64,000 bases of DNA from Streptantibioticus silvisoli. GTDB taxonomy: Bacteria > Actinomycetota > Actinomycetes > Streptomycetales > Streptomycetaceae. The stretch is from assembly GCF_027947535.2 (NCBI RefSeq), contig NZ_JAAGKO020000014.1:1-64000 (forward strand). The letters run 5' to 3'. A program made the translations under genes and the position numbers. Within the stretch, counting starts at the first letter, position 1. The number at the start of each line of letters is the position of its first letter. Shown piece by piece: positions 2,093 through 11,499 of this stretch. The notes below the pieces were generated by a model that was not told the DNA's origin, did no database searches, and saw nothing but the letters and a program-made list of their open reading frames with translations.

Positions 2093-3171
2093 CCCGGGCC
2101 TGCGTGGTCGGACTGGGACGCGCCGGCCGCGTGCACCGCCAGTTGCTCGTCGGGATGGGCGTCACGGTGATCACCGCCGACCCGGTGTCCAGCGATCTGG
2201 TCGCGGCCCATGTGCCGTACGTGGAGGACGTACCGGCGGTCTGCGCGATCGACCTGTGGTCGGTGTGCACGCCCACCAGGGATCACCTGTCCACCGTTCG
2301 GCGGATTCTTCGGCGCGACCCGGCCGCCCGCATCCTGGTCGAAACGCCGCTCTGCCTGCCCGGCGAGATCGAGGCGTTCGCCGCTGAGGAAGCGGCGCAT
2401 CCGGCCGCCCGGCTGATGTCGGCCGACCAGTACCGCTTCGCCCGGGTGGCCGCAGACGCGCGGACCACGGCGGAGGGTACCTGTGGCAGAAGCCCTGTCC
2501 GCAGCATCCGGATGGCCTTCACCGACCGCCGGCCCGATATCGCGGGTGACCGCTTCATGGGCGACGGCTACGGCGTGTTCGGGTACGAATGGGTCCACAT
2601 GCTCGCCCTGCTCCGCCATGTGCTCGCCCCGCAGACGCTCACCGCGTACCTGCGCGGGCCGGCGGCCGCCAGCCTGCTCCGCAGCCCGGACAGGGGTACG
2701 ACCACCGCGTGGGAGCGGACCGTTCTGGCCGACGATTGCGAACTGGAACTGTTCTCGACGGTGGACGCCCCCGCTGCGGACAGCCGCGGCGACACTCCCG
2801 GTTGGGTACGACGGTTCCCATCGGGGCCGGGCGGTCGGCGGCGCGTTCTCGACGTGTCCACCGACCACGGCTCCTGGACGGTCGAGTTCGCCCCCGTGAC
2901 CGACCCGGACGGCCACGGGCTCGGGCGCGACCGGCACCGCGTCACCATCCGTTCGTCCGTCGGAACCCGTTGGCGGATCGTGTCGGACTCCGCCCCGCAC
3001 ACCATGTTCGCGTGGGCGCTGTCGGCGGACGGCGATTCCCCGCCCGCGCTCGACACCCTCCCCACCAGGCGCCTGGCCGCGGTCGCCGGCCGCTACCGGT
3101 CCGCGCTCGAACTGTCCGGGGCGCCGCTGTCGCCCGGGACCGCCCTCACCCCGCAGTGGAGCCGATCCTGA
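2089..3171 (+). CDS. Gfo/Idh/MocA-like NAD-binding protein, degenerate active site
   Basis: A 360-aa protein starting at GTG 2089, preceded by GGGGGAGAGG and overlapping the upstream gene by four bases. Residues 3-30 form a Rossmann start with G-L-G-R-A-G; the rest fits the two-domain Gfo/Idh layout (sugar or inositol dehydrogenases and reductases). Two hallmarks are altered: the family's E-K-P motif reads E-T-P (in ILVETPLCLPGEIEAF), so the catalytic lysine is missing, and the D-x-G-x-H region reads YEWVH. It may therefore bind a nucleotide without acting as a normal dehydrogenase, or use other residues. Coupling to a small membrane protein suggests a membrane-linked role. Fold assignment is good; substrate is unknown. 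Confidence 0.8.
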   Translation: MTRACVVGLGRAGRVHRQLLVGMGVTVITADPVSSDLVAAHVPYVEDVPAVCAIDLWSVCTPTRDHLSTVRRILRRDPAARILVETPLCLPGEIEAFAAEEAAHPAARLMSADQYRFARVAADARTTAEGTCGRSPVRSIRMAFTDRRPDIAGDRFMGDGYGVFGYEWVHMLALLRHVLAPQTLTAYLRGPAAASLLRSPDRGTTTAWERTVLADDCELELFSTVDAPAADSRGDTPGWVRRFPSGPGGRRRVLDVSTDHGSWTVEFAPVTDPDGHGLGRDRHRVTIRSSVGTRWRIVSDSAPHTMFAWALSADGDSPPALDTLPTRRLAAVAGRYRSALELSGAPLSPGTALTPQWSRS

Positions 3172-3242: not shown

Positions 3243-3336
3243 ACTGCGCGGGGTGCGGCTGGGGGCGGCGGCACCCGGGAGCTCGAACGGGTCCGGCCTT
3301 CCGACCGGGGGGCCGTCGCCGGTGGTTGCCATTGAG

Positions 3337-3351
3337 TGATCATCTGATGAT
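3337..3351. promoter_or_regulatory. Repeated AT-rich operator-like element, copy 2
   Basis: TGATCATCTGATGAT contains the perfect inverted repeat ATCATC-T-GATGAT. It lies about 145 bases before the 20-codon ORF at 3496 and shares 11 identical bases with the copy at 1707. Likely a binding site for the same unknown regulator; no regulator gene of an obvious partner family adjoins it. Confidence 0.4.
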
Positions 3352-3495
3352 GATTCAGAAGGGTGTGTGCAGAGTGGAATGCGGTGCACATGGTGCGGCA
3401 GGGGCGGGTCACATATCCAGAGCACCCCGATGATGGGTCGCTCCCAGTCCGTCAGGGACCGGGGCAGATAGCTGATTGTCACAGGAGAAGTCATC

Positions 3496-3558
3496 ATGAT
3501 CGCTGTCCACGTTTTCGCCCACCTCGGTCTCTTCCTCGGTCACTTCGGTCTGCTCTGA
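3496..3558 (+). CDS. Twenty-residue hydrophobic peptide ORF
   Basis: ATG 3496 is preceded at 7 bases by AGGAGAAG, one of the best ribosome binding sites in the region. The 20-residue product is hydrophobic with regularly spaced histidines and glycines (MIAVHVFAH...GHFGLL), long enough to span a membrane as one helix. A 15-bp hairpin begins 9 bases after the stop, so the ORF looks like an independent, well-terminated transcription unit. It could be a small membrane peptide, a leader peptide with attenuator, or an sRNA carrying a peptide. No family was recognised. Confidence 0.5.
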   Translation: MIAVHVFAHLGLFLGHFGLL

Positions 3559-3567
3559 TCCCGACCC

Positions 3568-3604
3568 TGCCTGTGGCCCACCGCGACCCGGTGGGCCACA
3601 GGCA
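3568..3604. terminator. Strong 15-bp hairpin after the 20-codon ORF
   Basis: Perfect stem TGCCTGTGGCCCACC / GGTGGGCCACAGGCA with a 7-nt loop, 9 bases after the TGA. Typical of terminators in Streptomyces, which often lack a U-tract; an attenuator role is possible if the peptide is a leader. Confidence 0.85.
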
Positions 3605-4148
3605 TGTCGGGCGGCCTCCCAGCCCCGCCGCTTCGACGCGGCCGGGCCCGCTGAGGCCCCGAGAGGCCGTGGACTCCGGGTTCCGACCTCGACCGCGCGC
3701 GTACGGCGTGCTGGCCAACGCCGGCCACGGCCTCACCGGCGCGGTCGATTGAACGCGTCGAGGAACGCACCGGCGAGTTGGTGGGGCACGACGCCCGGTC
3801 ATCTGCCGAACGCGCCGCGTACCGAGATGTTGCCACGGCATTGTTCACGGTGGCGCCGGGGGGCTGTCAATCAATGCGGCCCCGGATGGACTCGATATCC
3901 GGCCCACGAGCACGGCCGGATCAGCGAGGCGCGGGAGGGGAACAGACGTGGCGCCGACAGTCGGTTCAACGCCGCAGAGGGAGGCGCGGGCGCCGTGCCG
4001 CGGTGTAGGGGGAGCGACGCCGCGCCGAGTTCGGATCTGTGCGCATTCACCGGTATCGGCGCGATTGCCTCACTCCGAGCCCGCCTCCTGACCTGACAGC
4101 CCATCAGCTCTCGATGTCATGTACGGAAGGAAAGGGGGGAGCAGACCG
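3605..4148. other. Intergenic region upstream of the nSTAND gene
   Basis: About 540 bases. One short frame near 3700-3750 reads YGVLANAGHGLTGAVD, reminiscent of the NAG segment of short-chain dehydrogenases, but it is isolated and ends at a stop, so at most it is debris. The promoter of the nSTAND gene is probably here; no clear -35/-10 pair was found. Confidence 0.35.
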
Positions 4149-7100
4149 ATGCCGGGTCGTCCCGAGGGTCCGCTCGATCCCGCCGAGGGGCCGGTGCAGG
4201 CGTTGGCCCACGCGCTGCGCGTCCTGCGGGAGGAGGCCGGCCGACCCTCCTACCGGGCGATGGCCGCCCGCACGGCGTTCGCGGCGAGCACCCTGTCGCA
4301 GGCCGCCGCCGGGGAACGGCTGATGACCTTGCCGGTGCTGCTCGCCTACGTCCGGGCCTGCGGTGGGGACGAGCGGGAATGGCGACGGCGTTGGCAGGAC
4401 GCGTCCCGCGAGGACAGAGAGCGGCAGCGGCCGGACGACGGGGACGCGGTGCCCTACCGCGGTCTGGGACGGTTCGAGCCGGCGCACGCCGACCTGTTCT
4501 TCGGCCGCGACCGTCTCGTCGCCCACCTCGCGGCCCACGTGCGCGCACACCGGCTGGTCGCCCTCGTCGGGGCGTCCGGCAGCGGCAAGTCGTCCCTGCT
4601 GCGCGCCGGGCTCGTCCCGCTCCTGCGAACCGGTGGTGACGCCGGTGCCCCGCCGCGTCCGGCCGCCATCCGGATACTCACCCCCGGCCCGCATCCGTTC
4701 CCCGGCCCCGCGGCGGCGCTGACCCCGGACCGGGGCGACGGCGACACGGTGGTCCTGGTCGACCAGTTCGAGGAACTCTTCACGCTGTGCGGCGACCCCG
4801 GTCGGCGGTCCGCCTTCCTCGACCTGCTGATGACGGCCGTCGAGCCGGACAGCCGGCTGCGCGTGGTGATCGCCGTGCGGGCCGACTTCTTCGGCCGCTG
4901 CGCCGAGCACCCGCGGCTGGCCGAGGCGCTGCGGCACGCGACCCTGCTCGTCGGACCGATGGAACCGGCCGAGCTGAGGGACGTCGTCGTGCGACCGGCC
5001 GCCACGCTCGGCCTGACCGTGGAACGCGGACTGACCGCCCGGATCGTCGCCGACGCGGCGGACAAGCCCGGTGGCCTCCCCCTGATGTCCCACGCGCTGC
5101 TGGAGACCTGGCGGCGCCGCAAGGGCCGCACGTTGACCCTTGCGGCGTACGAGAGCGCGGGCGGCATGCAGGGAGCCATCGCGCGGACCGCCGAGAGCGT
5201 CTACCGGCGGCTGTCCGCCGAGCAGGCGGCGACCGCCCGGCGCGTCCTGCTGCGCCTCGTCACGCCGGGACAGGGCTCCGCCGACACCGGCCGGCCGGCC
5301 ACGCGCGAGGAACTGGTGATCGACTGCCGGGCGGGCGAGCGTACCCGTTGCCTCGAAGTCGTCGAACGGCTGGCCGGGGCACGGCTGATCACCTTGGACG
5401 GGGGGACCGTCACCCTCGCCCACGAGGCCCTGCTCACCGCCTGGCCCAGGTTGCGCGGCTGGATCGACGCCGCACGTGACCGGTTGCGCCTGCACCGCCG
5501 GCTGAGCGCCGACGCCGGTACCTGGGACGAACTGGACCACGATCCCGGGGCGCTCTACCGCGGCTCCCAGCTGTCGGCGGCGCGGGCCGCCTTCGCCGAC
5601 CCCGATCATCGCGACGAACTGACGCGTGGCGAACGCTCCTTCCTCGACGCCAGCTACGAGTCGGGTGAGTCGGATCAACGCCACGGGGCACGAACCGCCC
5701 GGCGCATACGCGTACTGATCACCTCAATGTGCGTCCTCGTCGCGACCGCCCTTCTCGGGGGACCGCTTCTCTGGCAGGACACCGTCATATCGGCCCGCAA
5801 CAGTCTGCGGTACGCCGCGGTGAGCCAGGCTCTGGGACGCGCCGGCGCGCTGCGCGACTCCGACCCGCGGCAGGCGATGCGGCTGGCCGTGGCCGCGTAC
5901 GACCTCGCCGGCACTTCGTCGACCTGGTCCGCACTCGCCGAGGCCGCGACGCAACCGCAGCAGGACGACTTCGCGGTCCCCCGGGACACGACCGCCGGGC
6001 CGCCGTTCCTCGTCCGGCAGGGCACCACCGTGCTCAGCGCCGGGGCGCAGGGCGTACGGACCTGGGACTTGACCGGCCCCGGCGGCCCGCAACCGCAGGG
6101 CGACACGATCGGCGGTCCGTCCGTCCCCTCCCCGGGTCTCCTCGCGGTCGGCGACAACGGCTCCGAACTCGTCGGCCAGACGCCCGGTGGCGCGCTGCAA
6201 CTGTGGAGGACCACGTCACGGCGGCGGCAGGGCAAGCCGTTCGGGTCGTCGACCGGCGTGCCGCAGTTCGACCCCTCCGGAGACGCCGTCGCCGTCATGG
6301 GCCGCGGCCCGTCGGGCACCCGGGCCGAACTGTGGAGCACCGCCGGCCCCCGCCTCCTCGCCGCTACCCCCGCCGCGTCCACCTACGACCGGCCGGTCGC
6401 GGTCAGCGCTGGCGCCCACTACATCGCCTGGTGCCGCGACGACGGCCGGCCGGCCCTGTGGAACGTGGCGGGCCACCGTGCGGTCACCCTCACCGGTGAC
6501 GGGGCCGGCACCGCCTGCCCCCGAGCGGTGTCCGCCGCCGACCCCGGCCCCGCCCCGGCCTTCGCCCCCGACGGTCGGTCCCTGGCCCTGCCGGACGGCC
6601 ACGGCGCCCTCCGCCGCTGGAGCACCGACGGCCGCGCACTGCCGACGATGAGGCCGTCCCCGGCGGACCCCGGCACGGGCCTCGCCACCACGGTCGTCTA
6701 CAGCGACGACGGGCGTTTCCTCCTCACCGCCGGCGCCGGCGCGGCGACACTGTGGCGGGTGAGCGATCCCGGCCGGCCGGTCCGGCACATCGAGCTGGAC
6801 GGCTCCCCGGTACGCCAGCCGGTCCTCGACACGTCGCAGCACACCCTCCGCTATCTGACGACCTCCGCGGACGACGGCACGCCGGGACAGTCGTGGCACG
6901 TGCGGACCATCGACCTGGGCACCGCGGTCTCCACCACCTGGGACCCCCGTGGGTACGCCGCCGTAGCCCTCAGCGCGGACGGGGCGCGCGCCGTGTTGCC
7001 GGCGGGGAGCACAACCGCGCGTCTGACGACCGCACCGCGGGGCGGCGGCCGGCCGAGGACCCGGTACGTGCCGGACGTGGTTCCGCCGAAAGCCGTCGGG

Positions 7101-8030
7101 ACCGCGCAGACGGCCGCCTCACCTCTGGTGTTCAGCGCGGACGGAAGCCGGCTCGCCTATACCACCTCTACGCGGGCGACCGGTCACGGCCCTCCCGACG
7201 CCGTGGCGATCCGGAACGTCTCCGACGGCCGCCTCGTCACGACCGTCGGCCTCCCGCCCGGCACCGTTTCCGGGTTCGCCCTCGACACCTCCGGGCAGCG
7301 TCTGGCGCTCCTGGTGACCAACGGGCCCCGCCACGACGTCGAGTTGTACGACCTGTCCGCTCGGAACACGCCGGCGGGAAAGGGGCCGTGGAGCATGCCC
7401 GTGCCGAGCGGGAAGCAGGACGTGGTGTTCGGTTCACAGGACAATCAGCTGATCGTCACAGGCGGACCGCCTGCTCCCGGTACCGGCGCGGAATTCACAC
7501 CGCTCAACGTCTCCTTCAGCCCGGACGTCGCCGGCGTCTACGCCGATACCGACAGCGGAGCGGTGACCGCCTTCAGCCCGGACGGCCGGTTCCTCGCCGT
7601 CGACGACGCGTCCGGTCGGCTCACCGTGTACGACGGGGAGCCCCAAGTAGCTCTCAGGCGGCTGCAACGCGGCGATTCCGCCTCCGGTGCGGATCAGGAC
7701 CGCGTCATGGCCTTCTCGGCCCAGGGGCGCCTGCTGGCGGTCACCGACCCCGACGGCACCGTGTCCGTCTGGGACACGACCGACTGGAAACTGCTGGGCA
7801 GCGCGTTCCCGACCACCGGTGACGCGATCCGGGCCCTGGCCTTCGCCCCGCAGGGCGACGTGCTGTACGCCCAGGGCCTGCACACCCCGTTGCAGACGAT
7901 CGACCTCAGCCCGTCGTCCATGGTCGCCCAGCTGTGCGCCCGCCTCGGCGGGGTGGGTCTCTCCTTCTCCCAGTGGCAGGAGGACATCACCACCGTCCCC
8001 TATCACCGGACATGCGGTTCCGGTTACTGA
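4149..8030 (+). CDS. nSTAND ATPase with N-terminal HTH and C-terminal WD40-like propellers
   Basis: A 1293-aa protein. Start at ATG 4149, after AAGGGGGGAG. Order of domains: XRE-like helix-turn-helix at about 15-80 (SYRAMAARTAFAASTLSQ), STAND NTPase module with P-loop GASGSGKSS at about 141-149, Walker B-like VVLVDQFEEL at about 199, and the region GGLPLMSHALLETWRRR; one predicted transmembrane helix at about 520-543; then roughly 700 residues of degenerate WD40/beta-propeller repeats (AFAPDGRSLALPD, AFSPDGRFLAVDD, VSVWDTTDWKLLG). STAND proteins of this layout are signalling or defence switches in which ligand or partner binding by the propeller controls NTP-dependent oligomerisation. The cytoplasmic ATPase with an outward propeller is an inference from the single helix. 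It stands alone, with no effector gene beside it. Confidence 0.9.
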   Translation: MPGRPEGPLDPAEGPVQALAHALRVLREEAGRPSYRAMAARTAFAASTLSQAAAGERLMTLPVLLAYVRACGGDEREWRRRWQDASREDRERQRPDDGDAVPYRGLGRFEPAHADLFFGRDRLVAHLAAHVRAHRLVALVGASGSGKSSLLRAGLVPLLRTGGDAGAPPRPAAIRILTPGPHPFPGPAAALTPDRGDGDTVVLVDQFEELFTLCGDPGRRSAFLDLLMTAVEPDSRLRVVIAVRADFFGRCAEHPRLAEALRHATLLVGPMEPAELRDVVVRPAATLGLTVERGLTARIVADAADKPGGLPLMSHALLETWRRRKGRTLTLAAYESAGGMQGAIARTAESVYRRLSAEQAATARRVLLRLVTPGQGSADTGRPATREELVIDCRAGERTRCLEVVERLAGARLITLDGGTVTLAHEALLTAWPRLRGWIDAARDRLRLHRRLSADAGTWDELDHDPGALYRGSQLSAARAAFADPDHRDELTRGERSFLDASYESGESDQRHGARTARRIRVLITSMCVLVATALLGGPLLWQDTVISARNSLRYAAVSQALGRAGALRDSDPRQAMRLAVAAYDLAGTSSTWSALAEAATQPQQDDFAVPRDTTAGPPFLVRQGTTVLSAGAQGVRTWDLTGPGGPQPQGDTIGGPSVPSPGLLAVGDNGSELVGQTPGGALQLWRTTSRRRQGKPFGSSTGVPQFDPSGDAVAVMGRGPSGTRAELWSTAGPRLLAATPAASTYDRPVAVSAGAHYIAWCRDDGRPALWNVAGHRAVTLTGDGAGTACPRAVSAADPGPAPAFAPDGRSLALPDGHGALRRWSTDGRALPTMRPSPADPGTGLATTVVYSDDGRFLLTAGAGAATLWRVSDPGRPVRHIELDGSPVRQPVLDTSQHTLRYLTTSADDGTPGQSWHVRTIDLGTAVSTTWDPRGYAAVALSADGARAVLPAGSTTARLTTAPRGGGRPRTRYVPDVVPPKAVGTAQTAASPLVFSADGSRLAYTTSTRATGHGPPDAVAIRNVSDGRLVTTVGLPPGTVSGFALDTSGQRLALLVTNGPRHDVELYDLSARNTPAGKGPWSMPVPSGKQDVVFGSQDNQLIVTGGPPAPGTGAEFTPLNVSFSPDVAGVYADTDSGAVTAFSPDGRFLAVDDASGRLTVYDGEPQVALRRLQRGDSASGADQDRVMAFSAQGRLLAVTDPDGTVSVWDTTDWKLLGSAFPTTGDAIRALAFAPQGDVLYAQGLHTPLQTIDLSPSSMVAQLCARLGGVGLSFSQWQEDITTVPYHRTCGSGY

Positions 8031-8199: not shown

Positions 8200-9489
8200 T
8201 CAGACCGCGACGCGCGTGACGGCGACCAACTCGCGTACGCCCGGGGTCCGGGGATGCCGGGAGTGCAGGTCGGTGACGATCTGTCGGATCGTCGGACGAT
8301 CCCGGACCTCGCTGGGGGAGACGCGCGCAGCAGCGAGCAGTTCGGCAGCAGTCTGCTCCGGCTTGCCACGCTGCCACCAGGCCCGACCGAGGTCGGTGTG
8401 CATTCGCCCTTTCCGTTCGGCCGTCCTGAACTGGTCCTCGTGGAGCCGGCGGCCGGTCTCAAGGGCAGTACCGGCATCGCCGAGCGCCCAGTGCACGCCG
8501 ACCGCGTAGAGGTCCACAGCGGCCGGAGTCAGGGGGAAGAGCCGACCTGTCGGCGCCTCATCGGGAAGGCCGCGGGCGGCCCGCGTCGCCTCATGGATCA
8601 TGGCCAGCGCCTGATCTCGATCGCCGGCCACCGCCGCTGTGTAGGAGGTGGTGCACAGCATCTGTGCGTAGGCCGACGCCTGTGCGTCCGTACGCAGTCC
8701 GGTGGCTTCCATCCGCGCGACAGCGTCCAGAATGTGCCGCTGAGCCGCAGCGGGCTGGTTCTGATGGCGCAGCACGATGCTCAGTTCGCGTGCGGCCGCT
8801 GCGGCCACGAGCGGCGAGCCGGACAGCTCCGCGTACACCGTGGCACGGTCGGCAGCCAGCCGGGATTGGTCGTATCGGCCGATCTTCGTCAAAATCTGGG
8901 AAGCGAGACTGTAGGTCGCCGACAGGCTGGCAAGGGCTGTTTCGTGTCGACTGCGGGCCGCGTATTGAGCGTCGGCCAGCAGGCCGGGCAGCAACTGGAG
9001 CAGCCGGGTGTTGTGGCCGGCGTCGAAATGCTGCCGTGCGGTGGCGAGCCGCACGTCGACGGGGAGGTGGGAGCCGGTGGGGTCGGGCATGCTGGCCAAA
9101 GCATCCTGCATGCTTGACAGGAGTGCGGCGGGCACGGTGAGCCCGGTGGCGGCGAGCAGTGTTCGGCGGCGCATCGGGTCCTCCTCGGCACGGCGCGATT
9201 CCTCCCGCGCAACTGTAGTGGCTGGAGGGACGCCCAACCCCAAGGACGCCGCTAGGACATTTGTCGGTACCCCCACCTCCCGGGCGGCATGCCGTAACAA
9301 GGCGAGGTCGGCCTGCCGGCCGTGCTGCTCCAGACGGGAGATCGTGGAAGCGGAACAGCCGATGCGCGCGCCCAGATCCGCCTGACGCCACCCGCGGACC
9401 TGACGCCCGATCCGGATGAGTCCACCGGGATCACGACAGTCGACGAACGTACGGACCTGACGCGTGCTCCACAGCAGATCAGTGCTCAT
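8200..9489 (-). CDS. XRE-family regulator with C-terminal TPR-like repeats
   Basis: A 429-aa protein. An N-terminal helix-turn-helix (IGRQVRGWRQADLGARIGCSASTISRLE, about residues 28-55) is followed by a linker and an all-alpha region of TPR-like repeats to the end, with no enzyme motifs. Start at ATG 9489, preceded by GGGGGAGG. This architecture is very common in Streptomyces, usually as a dedicated regulator of a divergently encoded small gene; here the partner is the gene at 9685 across a 195-base gap that should hold both promoters. A peptide or small-molecule sensing role for the TPR part is inferred. Confidence 0.9.
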   Translation of the reverse strand: MSTDLLWSTRQVRTFVDCRDPGGLIRIGRQVRGWRQADLGARIGCSASTISRLEQHGRQADLALLRHAAREVGVPTNVLAASLGLGVPPATTVAREESRRAEEDPMRRRTLLAATGLTVPAALLSSMQDALASMPDPTGSHLPVDVRLATARQHFDAGHNTRLLQLLPGLLADAQYAARSRHETALASLSATYSLASQILTKIGRYDQSRLAADRATVYAELSGSPLVAAAAARELSIVLRHQNQPAAAQRHILDAVARMEATGLRTDAQASAYAQMLCTTSYTAAVAGDRDQALAMIHEATRAARGLPDEAPTGRLFPLTPAAVDLYAVGVHWALGDAGTALETGRRLHEDQFRTAERKGRMHTDLGRAWWQRGKPEQTAAELLAAARVSPSEVRDRPTIRQIVTDLHSRHPRTPGVRELVAVTRVAV

Positions 9490-10927: not shown

Positions 10928-11499
10928 CCGCACGTCACCGAAGCGGCTACCGCGATCCGCGGTGCGGCGGTGGCGGGTGATCGGTTGCGCGGTGATGACG
11001 TTCACGCCCGCAGGCCCGCCCACCGGCGCAACGCAGGCGTACACACGAAGTCACGCGCGCACGCGCACCCGCGCACGTAAGCACGCGCACCCGCGCACGT
11101 AAGCACGCGCACCCGCGCACGTAAGCACGCGCACCCGCGCACGTAAGCACGCGCACCCGCGCACGTAAGTACGCAAGCACGCGCGCGCACGCGCGCACGC
11201 CCACGCCCGTGCACCCCAGCCCGGGACACCAGGGCGAGCGCCTCGTGGGCTCCGCGTGCCGTCTCGACGGCGAGGATCTTGCCGGTGCCGGCCGGACCGT
11301 GGACGAGACCGGTGCCGGCGCGGGAGAGCGGGGCGCGGACGATCCGGGGGAGGGGGCGAGCCGGGGGAGTGGCCGGTCGGTGTCGCCCTGACGCGGTCGG
11401 CAGTCATGAGGCTGCCGACCGGGCGCCGGGCCGTACGGCTCACGGAAGTCGAAGCTGTCCGGCGTCCGGTATCCGGTATCCGGCGTCCGGCCGAAGGCC
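10928..11499. other. Intergenic region carrying a 22-bp tandem repeat
   Basis: No gene is supported. The central 110 bases are a tandem array, flanked by related CGCGCAC-rich sequence. At 11459-11490, close to the stop of the leftward gene, short CCGGTATCCGG/CCGGCGTCCGG direct repeats occur. Long open frames here on the minus strand are produced by the repeat (Arg/Val/Cys-rich) and are not genes. Confidence 0.6.
11059..11168. repeat. Five perfect copies of a 22-bp tandem repeat
   Basis: The unit begins GCACGCGCACC and ends GCGCACGTAA. Copies run 11059-11080, 11081-11102, 11103-11124, 11125-11146 and 11147-11168 without a mismatch, then decay into GTACGCAAGCACGCGCGC. The unit is two DNA turns long, so any protein bound to each copy would sit on the same face. 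The period is not a multiple of three, arguing against coding. Confidence 0.9.

Follow-up and report, generated by a model that had tools for sequence, protein, structure and literature searches.

A short candidate gene lies near the left end of the window (the whole analysed stretch of DNA, 64,000 nucleotides), and a second, diverged copy of it is present elsewhere in the same genome (the C1 copy). The unit has the following elements.

3331..3616, plus strand: whole duplicated unit (the mini-gene), 79% identical to the second copy over 3331-3615
3333..3357, no strand assigned: AT-rich 25-bp palindrome, operator- or promoter-like, 24/25 positions identical between the copies
3366..3390, no strand assigned: second dyad, TGTGCA...TGCACA, with the same arms in both copies and a variable spacer, 20/25 identical overall
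3420..3443, plus strand: small leader hairpin, formable in both copies with differing bases
3483..3490, plus strand: Shine-Dalgarno sequence AGGAGAAG (AGGAGAGA in the C1 copy), with 8 nt between AGGAG and the ATG
3496..3558, plus strand: 20-codon ORF encoding MIAVHVFAHLGLFLGHFGLL, from the ATG at 3496 to a TGA ending at 3558; the C1 copy encodes MVAIAVFAHISVVLGHFGWL
3568..3604, plus strand: terminator-like hairpin of 16 bp without a U tract, arms 3568-3583 and 3589-3604, 16/16 pairs in both copies

The original prediction had placed a Shine-Dalgarno sequence, an ATG, 20 codons, a stop codon and a hairpin in series, and direct reading of 3483-3604 bears this out. The AT-rich inverted repeat described on the 5' side is present at 3333-3357, with 12-nt arms that are 83% complementary. 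The hairpin, first given as 15 bp, is one pair longer: its 16-bp arms are 100% complementary around a loop of 5, and together with the outer pairs it has a predicted energy of -43.2 kcal/mol (z -8.4). The leader hairpin at 3420-3443 has a predicted energy of -10.8 kcal/mol (z -2.1) in the window and -15.9 kcal/mol (z -3.4) in the C1 copy. The two strands of the window contain 6 Shine-Dalgarno-preceded ORFs of 12-30 codons, and only the one at 3496-3558 has a stem of 12 or more pairs after it. The 64 kb contain 5 perfect stems of 10 bp or longer (loop 3-8), among which the hairpin at 3568-3604 is the longest; three Markov shuffles of the window gave 2, 2 and 0. The GC content is 57-60% over most of the unit and 67% over the end of the ORF and the hairpin, with immediate flanks of 73-81%. 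The region 3750-3900 is also lower in GC (64-66%).

The second copy occupies C1:318703-318987 (L004:7704-7988) in the 8.70-Mb genome of 130 contigs. The search of this genome with the window unit as the query gave a match at C1:318712-318987; with the C1 copy as the query, the match in the window was 3331-3615 at 79% identity, the whole unit being about 286 nt. The alignment begins at the AT-rich palindrome and stops a few bases past the hairpin; the 100 nt next to the unit on each side have an ungapped identity of 33% and are unrelated. Frames of 60 codons or more from window positions 1-30000 were translated and compared with those from three C1 stretches within 303000-338000. Five pairs were found at E<=1e-6: three are frames running across the unit itself, and in the other two, window frames at about 12.2 and 22 kb are weakly similar to a TetR frame on C1. 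As the flanks are unrelated and the boundaries fall at the palindrome and the hairpin, the unit alone, and no larger segment, was duplicated or twice acquired. The original prediction had offered a complete miniature gene as one of two readings, and this one gains from the comparison, since the whole layout is repeated at an unlinked site with conservative peptide changes and all 16 hairpin pairs.

Conservation is uneven along the unit. The 5' block (3331-3421) is conserved best, with 80/91 positions identical, compared with 42/61 in the middle of the leader, 11/13 in the Shine-Dalgarno sequence and spacer, 48/63 in the ORF and 28/38 in the hairpin. Thus at the DNA level the ORF is no better conserved than the rest of the unit.

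The two peptides have the same start, stop and length with no insertion or deletion, and 12/20 residues are identical and 16/20 positive. The base changes in the ORF, 15 in all, fall on first, second and third codon positions in 8, 2 and 5 cases. The BLOSUM62 score of the peptide pair is 69, against 46 +/- 9 when the same base changes are placed at random in the ORF (P 0.005, or 0.006 starting from the other copy). The values of pS (0.38) and pN (0.22) correspond to dN/dS of about 0.5, a difference taken here without a formal test. Peptide identity alone is within the null expectation (P 0.25 and 0.11), and retention of hydropathy is significant in only one of the two directions (P 0.002, against 0.30). 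Four open frames are shared by the copies, and P is 0.004 for the 20-codon ORF and 0.52, 0.05 and 0.28 for the others. The first of these others is a 28-codon frame in the leader; the second and third are on the minus strand and have no shared stop, and the one with P 0.28 extends beyond the unit as aligned. Corrected for the four frames, P for the 20-codon ORF is about 0.02, which is moderate support for selection, drawn from 15 substitutions in a single pair of copies. Taken together, these comparisons indicate that the 20-codon ORF is probably coding.

The leader frame MMIQKGVCRVECGAHGAAGAGHISRAPR (3347-3433) is open in the C1 copy too and has the same stop. It was considered as a second peptide and rejected, as it has no protein-level constraint (P 0.52) and no evident Shine-Dalgarno sequence.

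The hairpin retains all 16 pairs in both copies; three pairs are changed on both sides and one on one side. When its 3' arm is slid by 1-3 columns, 34-47% of cells are paired. In a shuffle control, which is weak with two sequences, 58 of 500 shuffles were as good. The original prediction had proposed setting peptide conservation against hairpin conservation in related strains. The copy in the same genome provides such a comparison, with conservative changes in the peptide and 16/16 pairs in the hairpin; the sets of other genomes searched gave no relatives.

The unit might instead be a small regulatory RNA whose working parts are the palindromes, the leader hairpin and the final hairpin, the ORF having an incidental or secondary role. 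The greater conservation of the 5' block and the maintenance of the hairpin by changes on both sides are in keeping with such an RNA. However, the strong Shine-Dalgarno sequence, the equal length of the ORFs and the conservative changes in the 20-codon frame, not clearly seen in the three other frames, argue for a translated product. Moreover, the predicted global folds of the two copies are unlike, and no Rfam family was found at gathering scores anywhere in the window. We regard this reading as rather unlikely. Given the differing global folds of the mRNA, a conserved structure sequestering the Shine-Dalgarno sequence was also rejected.

As for the hairpin as a terminator, the strong stem of the original prediction stands, but the U tract that would complete a classical terminator is absent: the hairpin is G+C-rich, the next 8 nt contain 2 T, and a simple terminator scan of the window gave no sites. 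Structured RNA 3' ends without U tracts are a mapped class in S. clavuligerus, where they account for 353 of the 535 structured ends reported in PMC8269248.

The palindromes are nearly confined to the two units. Allowing up to 3 mismatches, the 25-nt palindrome pattern occurs in the 8.7-Mb genome only in the two copies, and so does the second dyad as a 26-nt pattern with 6 free positions. At up to 2 mismatches, a 16-nt palindrome core has 7 sites in the genome, the 5 extra sites all carrying 2 mismatches, and the reversed control has none; therefore a regulator binding the palindrome may have a few more targets. The exact 21-nt palindrome has no occurrence in a set of 84,980 species, which may omit this genome and its near relatives. 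In viral contigs the palindrome has one match, in AT-rich DNA and taken as chance, and the second dyad block has none. This two-copy pattern would be expected of an operator used chiefly by these two genes, a core promoter being the alternative. A sigma-70-like site (TTGCCA, spacer of 17, GATGAT; 9/12 positions, 0.0 expected in shuffles) is present in the window at 3326-3354, its second hexamer inside the palindrome and its first hexamer mostly to the left of the shared unit. No promoter-like pair common to both copies scored above 7/12 in a scan of both.

The neighbours of the two copies differ. A Gfo/Idh-like frame, which scores 22.8 bits in Pfam against a cut-off of 24, ends at 3171 on the 5' side of the window copy. 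On the 3' side, the next co-directional gene with Pfam support starts at 4119, about 515 nt past the hairpin, and this gap is outside the shared unit. It encodes an nSTAND1 NTPase (4119-8030, 1303 codons) with WD40-like repeats in the C-terminal part and a start that by eye resembles a helix-turn-helix. STAND proteins often act as switches in defence or signalling. At C1, a divergent frame for a GH64 glucanase lies upstream on the opposite strand. The downstream gene, a GNAT acetyltransferase (L004:8091-8705), is also on the opposite strand and is read towards the hairpin. Farther out, NRPS-like frames precede the copy, and genes for a FAD-binding protein and a TetR regulator follow it. The NRPS-like frames (L004 75-5734) include condensation, AMP-binding and carrier domains and a luciferase-like part.

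This context bears on the second reading of the original prediction, a leader peptide with an attenuator controlling the downstream gene. The order of Shine-Dalgarno sequence, ORF and hairpin is that of an attenuator. However, His, Gly and Leu are scattered in the window peptide, with no run of any one regulatory amino acid, and the co-directional gene in the window is distant. The convergent gene after the C1 hairpin leaves nothing to attenuate, and for this reason the reading was dropped as extremely improbable.

Both peptides are 20 residues long and lack D, E, K, R, N and Q, with GRAVY values of 1.75 (window) and 1.87. The hydrophobic, His/Gly-containing 20-codon sequence originally described is thus confirmed for the window. 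The window contains, on its two strands, 100,276 overlapping 20-codon frames free of stops, and 123 of these reach the hydropathy of the window peptide. On an ideal helix the conserved residues H9 and H16 share a face (80 and 60 degrees), the residues A8, G/S11, G15 and G18 lying on another (260-340 degrees). Twenty residues just span the membrane core. Searches of Pfam, NCBIfam and PHROGs at E<=10 gave no family for either peptide, and PADLOC at E<=0.001 gave none for the window peptide, all of these searches having little power at 20 residues. No relative of the window peptide was found in PDB, and topic searches of the literature, made without the sequence letters and covering main texts only, found no description of the peptide.

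Further copies were sought in several collections. None of these collections yielded a third copy; they contain no other genome of the same genus, so a genus-wide family is possible. The unit DNA matched 4 of 100 genomes including its own, the other three by matches of 25-35 nt in the hairpin region only. The window peptide matched 1 of 394 genomes of the family, its own. The DNA of the C1 copy matched 149 of the 394 family genomes including its own; among the matches listed, all those outside its own genome are short (21-53 nt), fall mostly on the ORF stretch, and are taken for ordinary high-GC coding words. Fourteen such matches were fetched as loci, and when a profile built from the two copies was applied to the fetched loci, it recovered both copies, the best other match among those listed scoring 14.5 bits. 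A peptide profile at E<=10 matched 222 of the 394 family genomes including its own, with the best match outside it at E 0.0136 inside a 326-codon frame; none of the 13 loci inspected by eye is a mini-gene. The C1 peptide matched 9 of 394 genomes of the class including its own, at E>=0.145 outside it and in frames of 185-616 codons. A weak match on contig C98 of the same genome was rejected as a third copy (E 3.2 and 0.05, inside a 234-codon frame).

The motif FAH-x4-(L/F)GHFG occurs in 92 stretches in the 84,980-species set and in one in viral contigs. Inspection of these 93 by eye found the residues outside the motif to be unlike the peptide; 11 of the 93 were flagged for a nearby stop, in 3 of these inside the motif. 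In viral contigs, 61 stretches fit a peptide pattern and none passes tblastn at 1e-3, which is demanding for a query of 20 residues. Plasmids and phages gave no match at E<=1, in sets that may omit this genome and its near relatives.

The nearest kind of known gene, by analogy, is that of the type I toxins. Like IbsC, ShoB and TisB of E. coli, the present gene would encode a tiny hydrophobic peptide of less than 60 residues. Unlike them, the peptide has a conserved pair of His residues, its host is a high-GC actinomycete, and no antisense partner was detected nearby. IbsC has 19 residues and ShoB 26, and IbsC, like ShoB and DinQ, is described as an exception to the rule of a C-terminal positive charge (PMC8309996). 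The tisB gene is described as having a LexA operator, a standby site in the leader and an AGGAGA Shine-Dalgarno sequence (PMC11264685). A 2025 paper states that, until the Microcystis case, only Proteobacteria, Firmicutes and Tenericutes had been known to have type I systems (PMC12390103). A word search of PMC8309996 and PMC12390103 found no mention of Actinobacteria.

One alternative is a type I toxin proper: a membrane-damaging peptide similar to Ibs or TisB, with a small RNA, either antisense or trans-acting, silencing its mRNA. Length and composition fit (IbsC is a 19-residue helix), there is more than one copy in the genome, and the series of palindromic operator, long leader, AGGAGA Shine-Dalgarno sequence and small ORF parallels tisB as described in PMC11264685. 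However, there is no convincing conserved promoter on the minus strand; two 7/12 sites are shared, both in the 5' block and none over the ORF. The shared unit ends right past the hairpin and thus leaves no shared room for an antisense gene entering from the right. The longest exact words with the surrounding DNA (about 3.3-4.4 kb on each side) are 12 nt in the window and 11 nt at C1, within the range of 200 random controls. An RNA antitoxin, if there is one, may be encoded farther away. We consider a type I toxin unlikely, though less so than the RNA reading above.

Another alternative is a peptide pheromone of the SHP/RRNPP type, exported and then read by an intracellular receptor. A short hydrophobic peptide with a strong Shine-Dalgarno sequence would suit it, the window encodes an XRE-type helix-turn-helix protein 4.6 kb downstream of the unit (8203-9450), and about 6 kb from the C1 copy there is a frame that matches TPR below the threshold. 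However, RRNPP systems are defined by adjacent genes, as surveyed in Firmicutes (PMC10075063), and neither the XRE gene nor the TPR frame adjoins a unit. We find this very improbable. The XRE protein and the TPR frame were also considered as a shared receptor and rejected, being unrelated to each other. The XRE-type protein (minus strand) has 416 residues with a long C-terminal part and only weak PADLOC matches to HTH families.

The explanation we favour, with somewhat better than even confidence, is that the unit is a real, self-contained, monocistronic and regulated mini-gene, present in two copies and encoding an uncharged, His/Gly-containing, predicted membrane peptide. Transcription would start in or near the conserved 5' block (3331-3421) and would be controlled by a putative regulator acting at the palindromic site or sites. 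The mRNA, with its leader, would have a length of about 200-250 nt and end at the U-less hairpin. Ribosomes would start at the strong Shine-Dalgarno sequence and produce the 20-residue peptide, which may insert in the cell membrane as a single short helix. There it might pack against a membrane partner or, when abundant, make the membrane leaky. The sequence does not discriminate between a toxin like those of tisB and ibsC, a helper subunit and a signal. More speculatively, the two units may form a regulon of two or nearly so, in which a predicted repressor bound to the 25-bp palindrome holds off both His-bearing peptides and these dissipate the membrane potential once released. This extension of the mini-gene reading has a low probability; if true, it would be the first actinobacterial counterpart of the tisB and ibs toxins, controlled at an operator and not by an adjacent antisense RNA.

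The predicted architecture, with one short membrane helix making up the whole protein, resembles that of small membrane proteins linked to stress, such as YohP (27 residues), as described in PMC7549839 and PMC12719787. The putative short peptide-coding transcript is also similar to the sRNA-encoded peptides of Streptomyces and other bacteria (PMC10654065, PMC5521070). As presented in these two papers, such peptides start from peptide or RNA data, whereas the present candidate starts from sequence. Annotation normally misses genes of 20 codons; the present one could be recognised because two diverged copies allow the control region, the ORF and the hairpin to be compared. If the peptide is made, it would represent an undescribed family in a high-GC actinomycete. 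The approach is simple to repeat, by seeking duplicates of whole Shine-Dalgarno-ORF-hairpin units within one genome.

Some other features of the window were observed. The minus-strand frames at about 11000-11250 contain a repeated motif similar to YVRGCACLRARVRVLTCAGARA, which points to a tandem DNA repeat. At about 1890-1940 there is a short-period repeat, which reads LVLVLVLV or DQDQDQ in opposite frames. From about 43160 a ketosynthase-like coding start was seen by eye, which may belong to a polyketide cluster.
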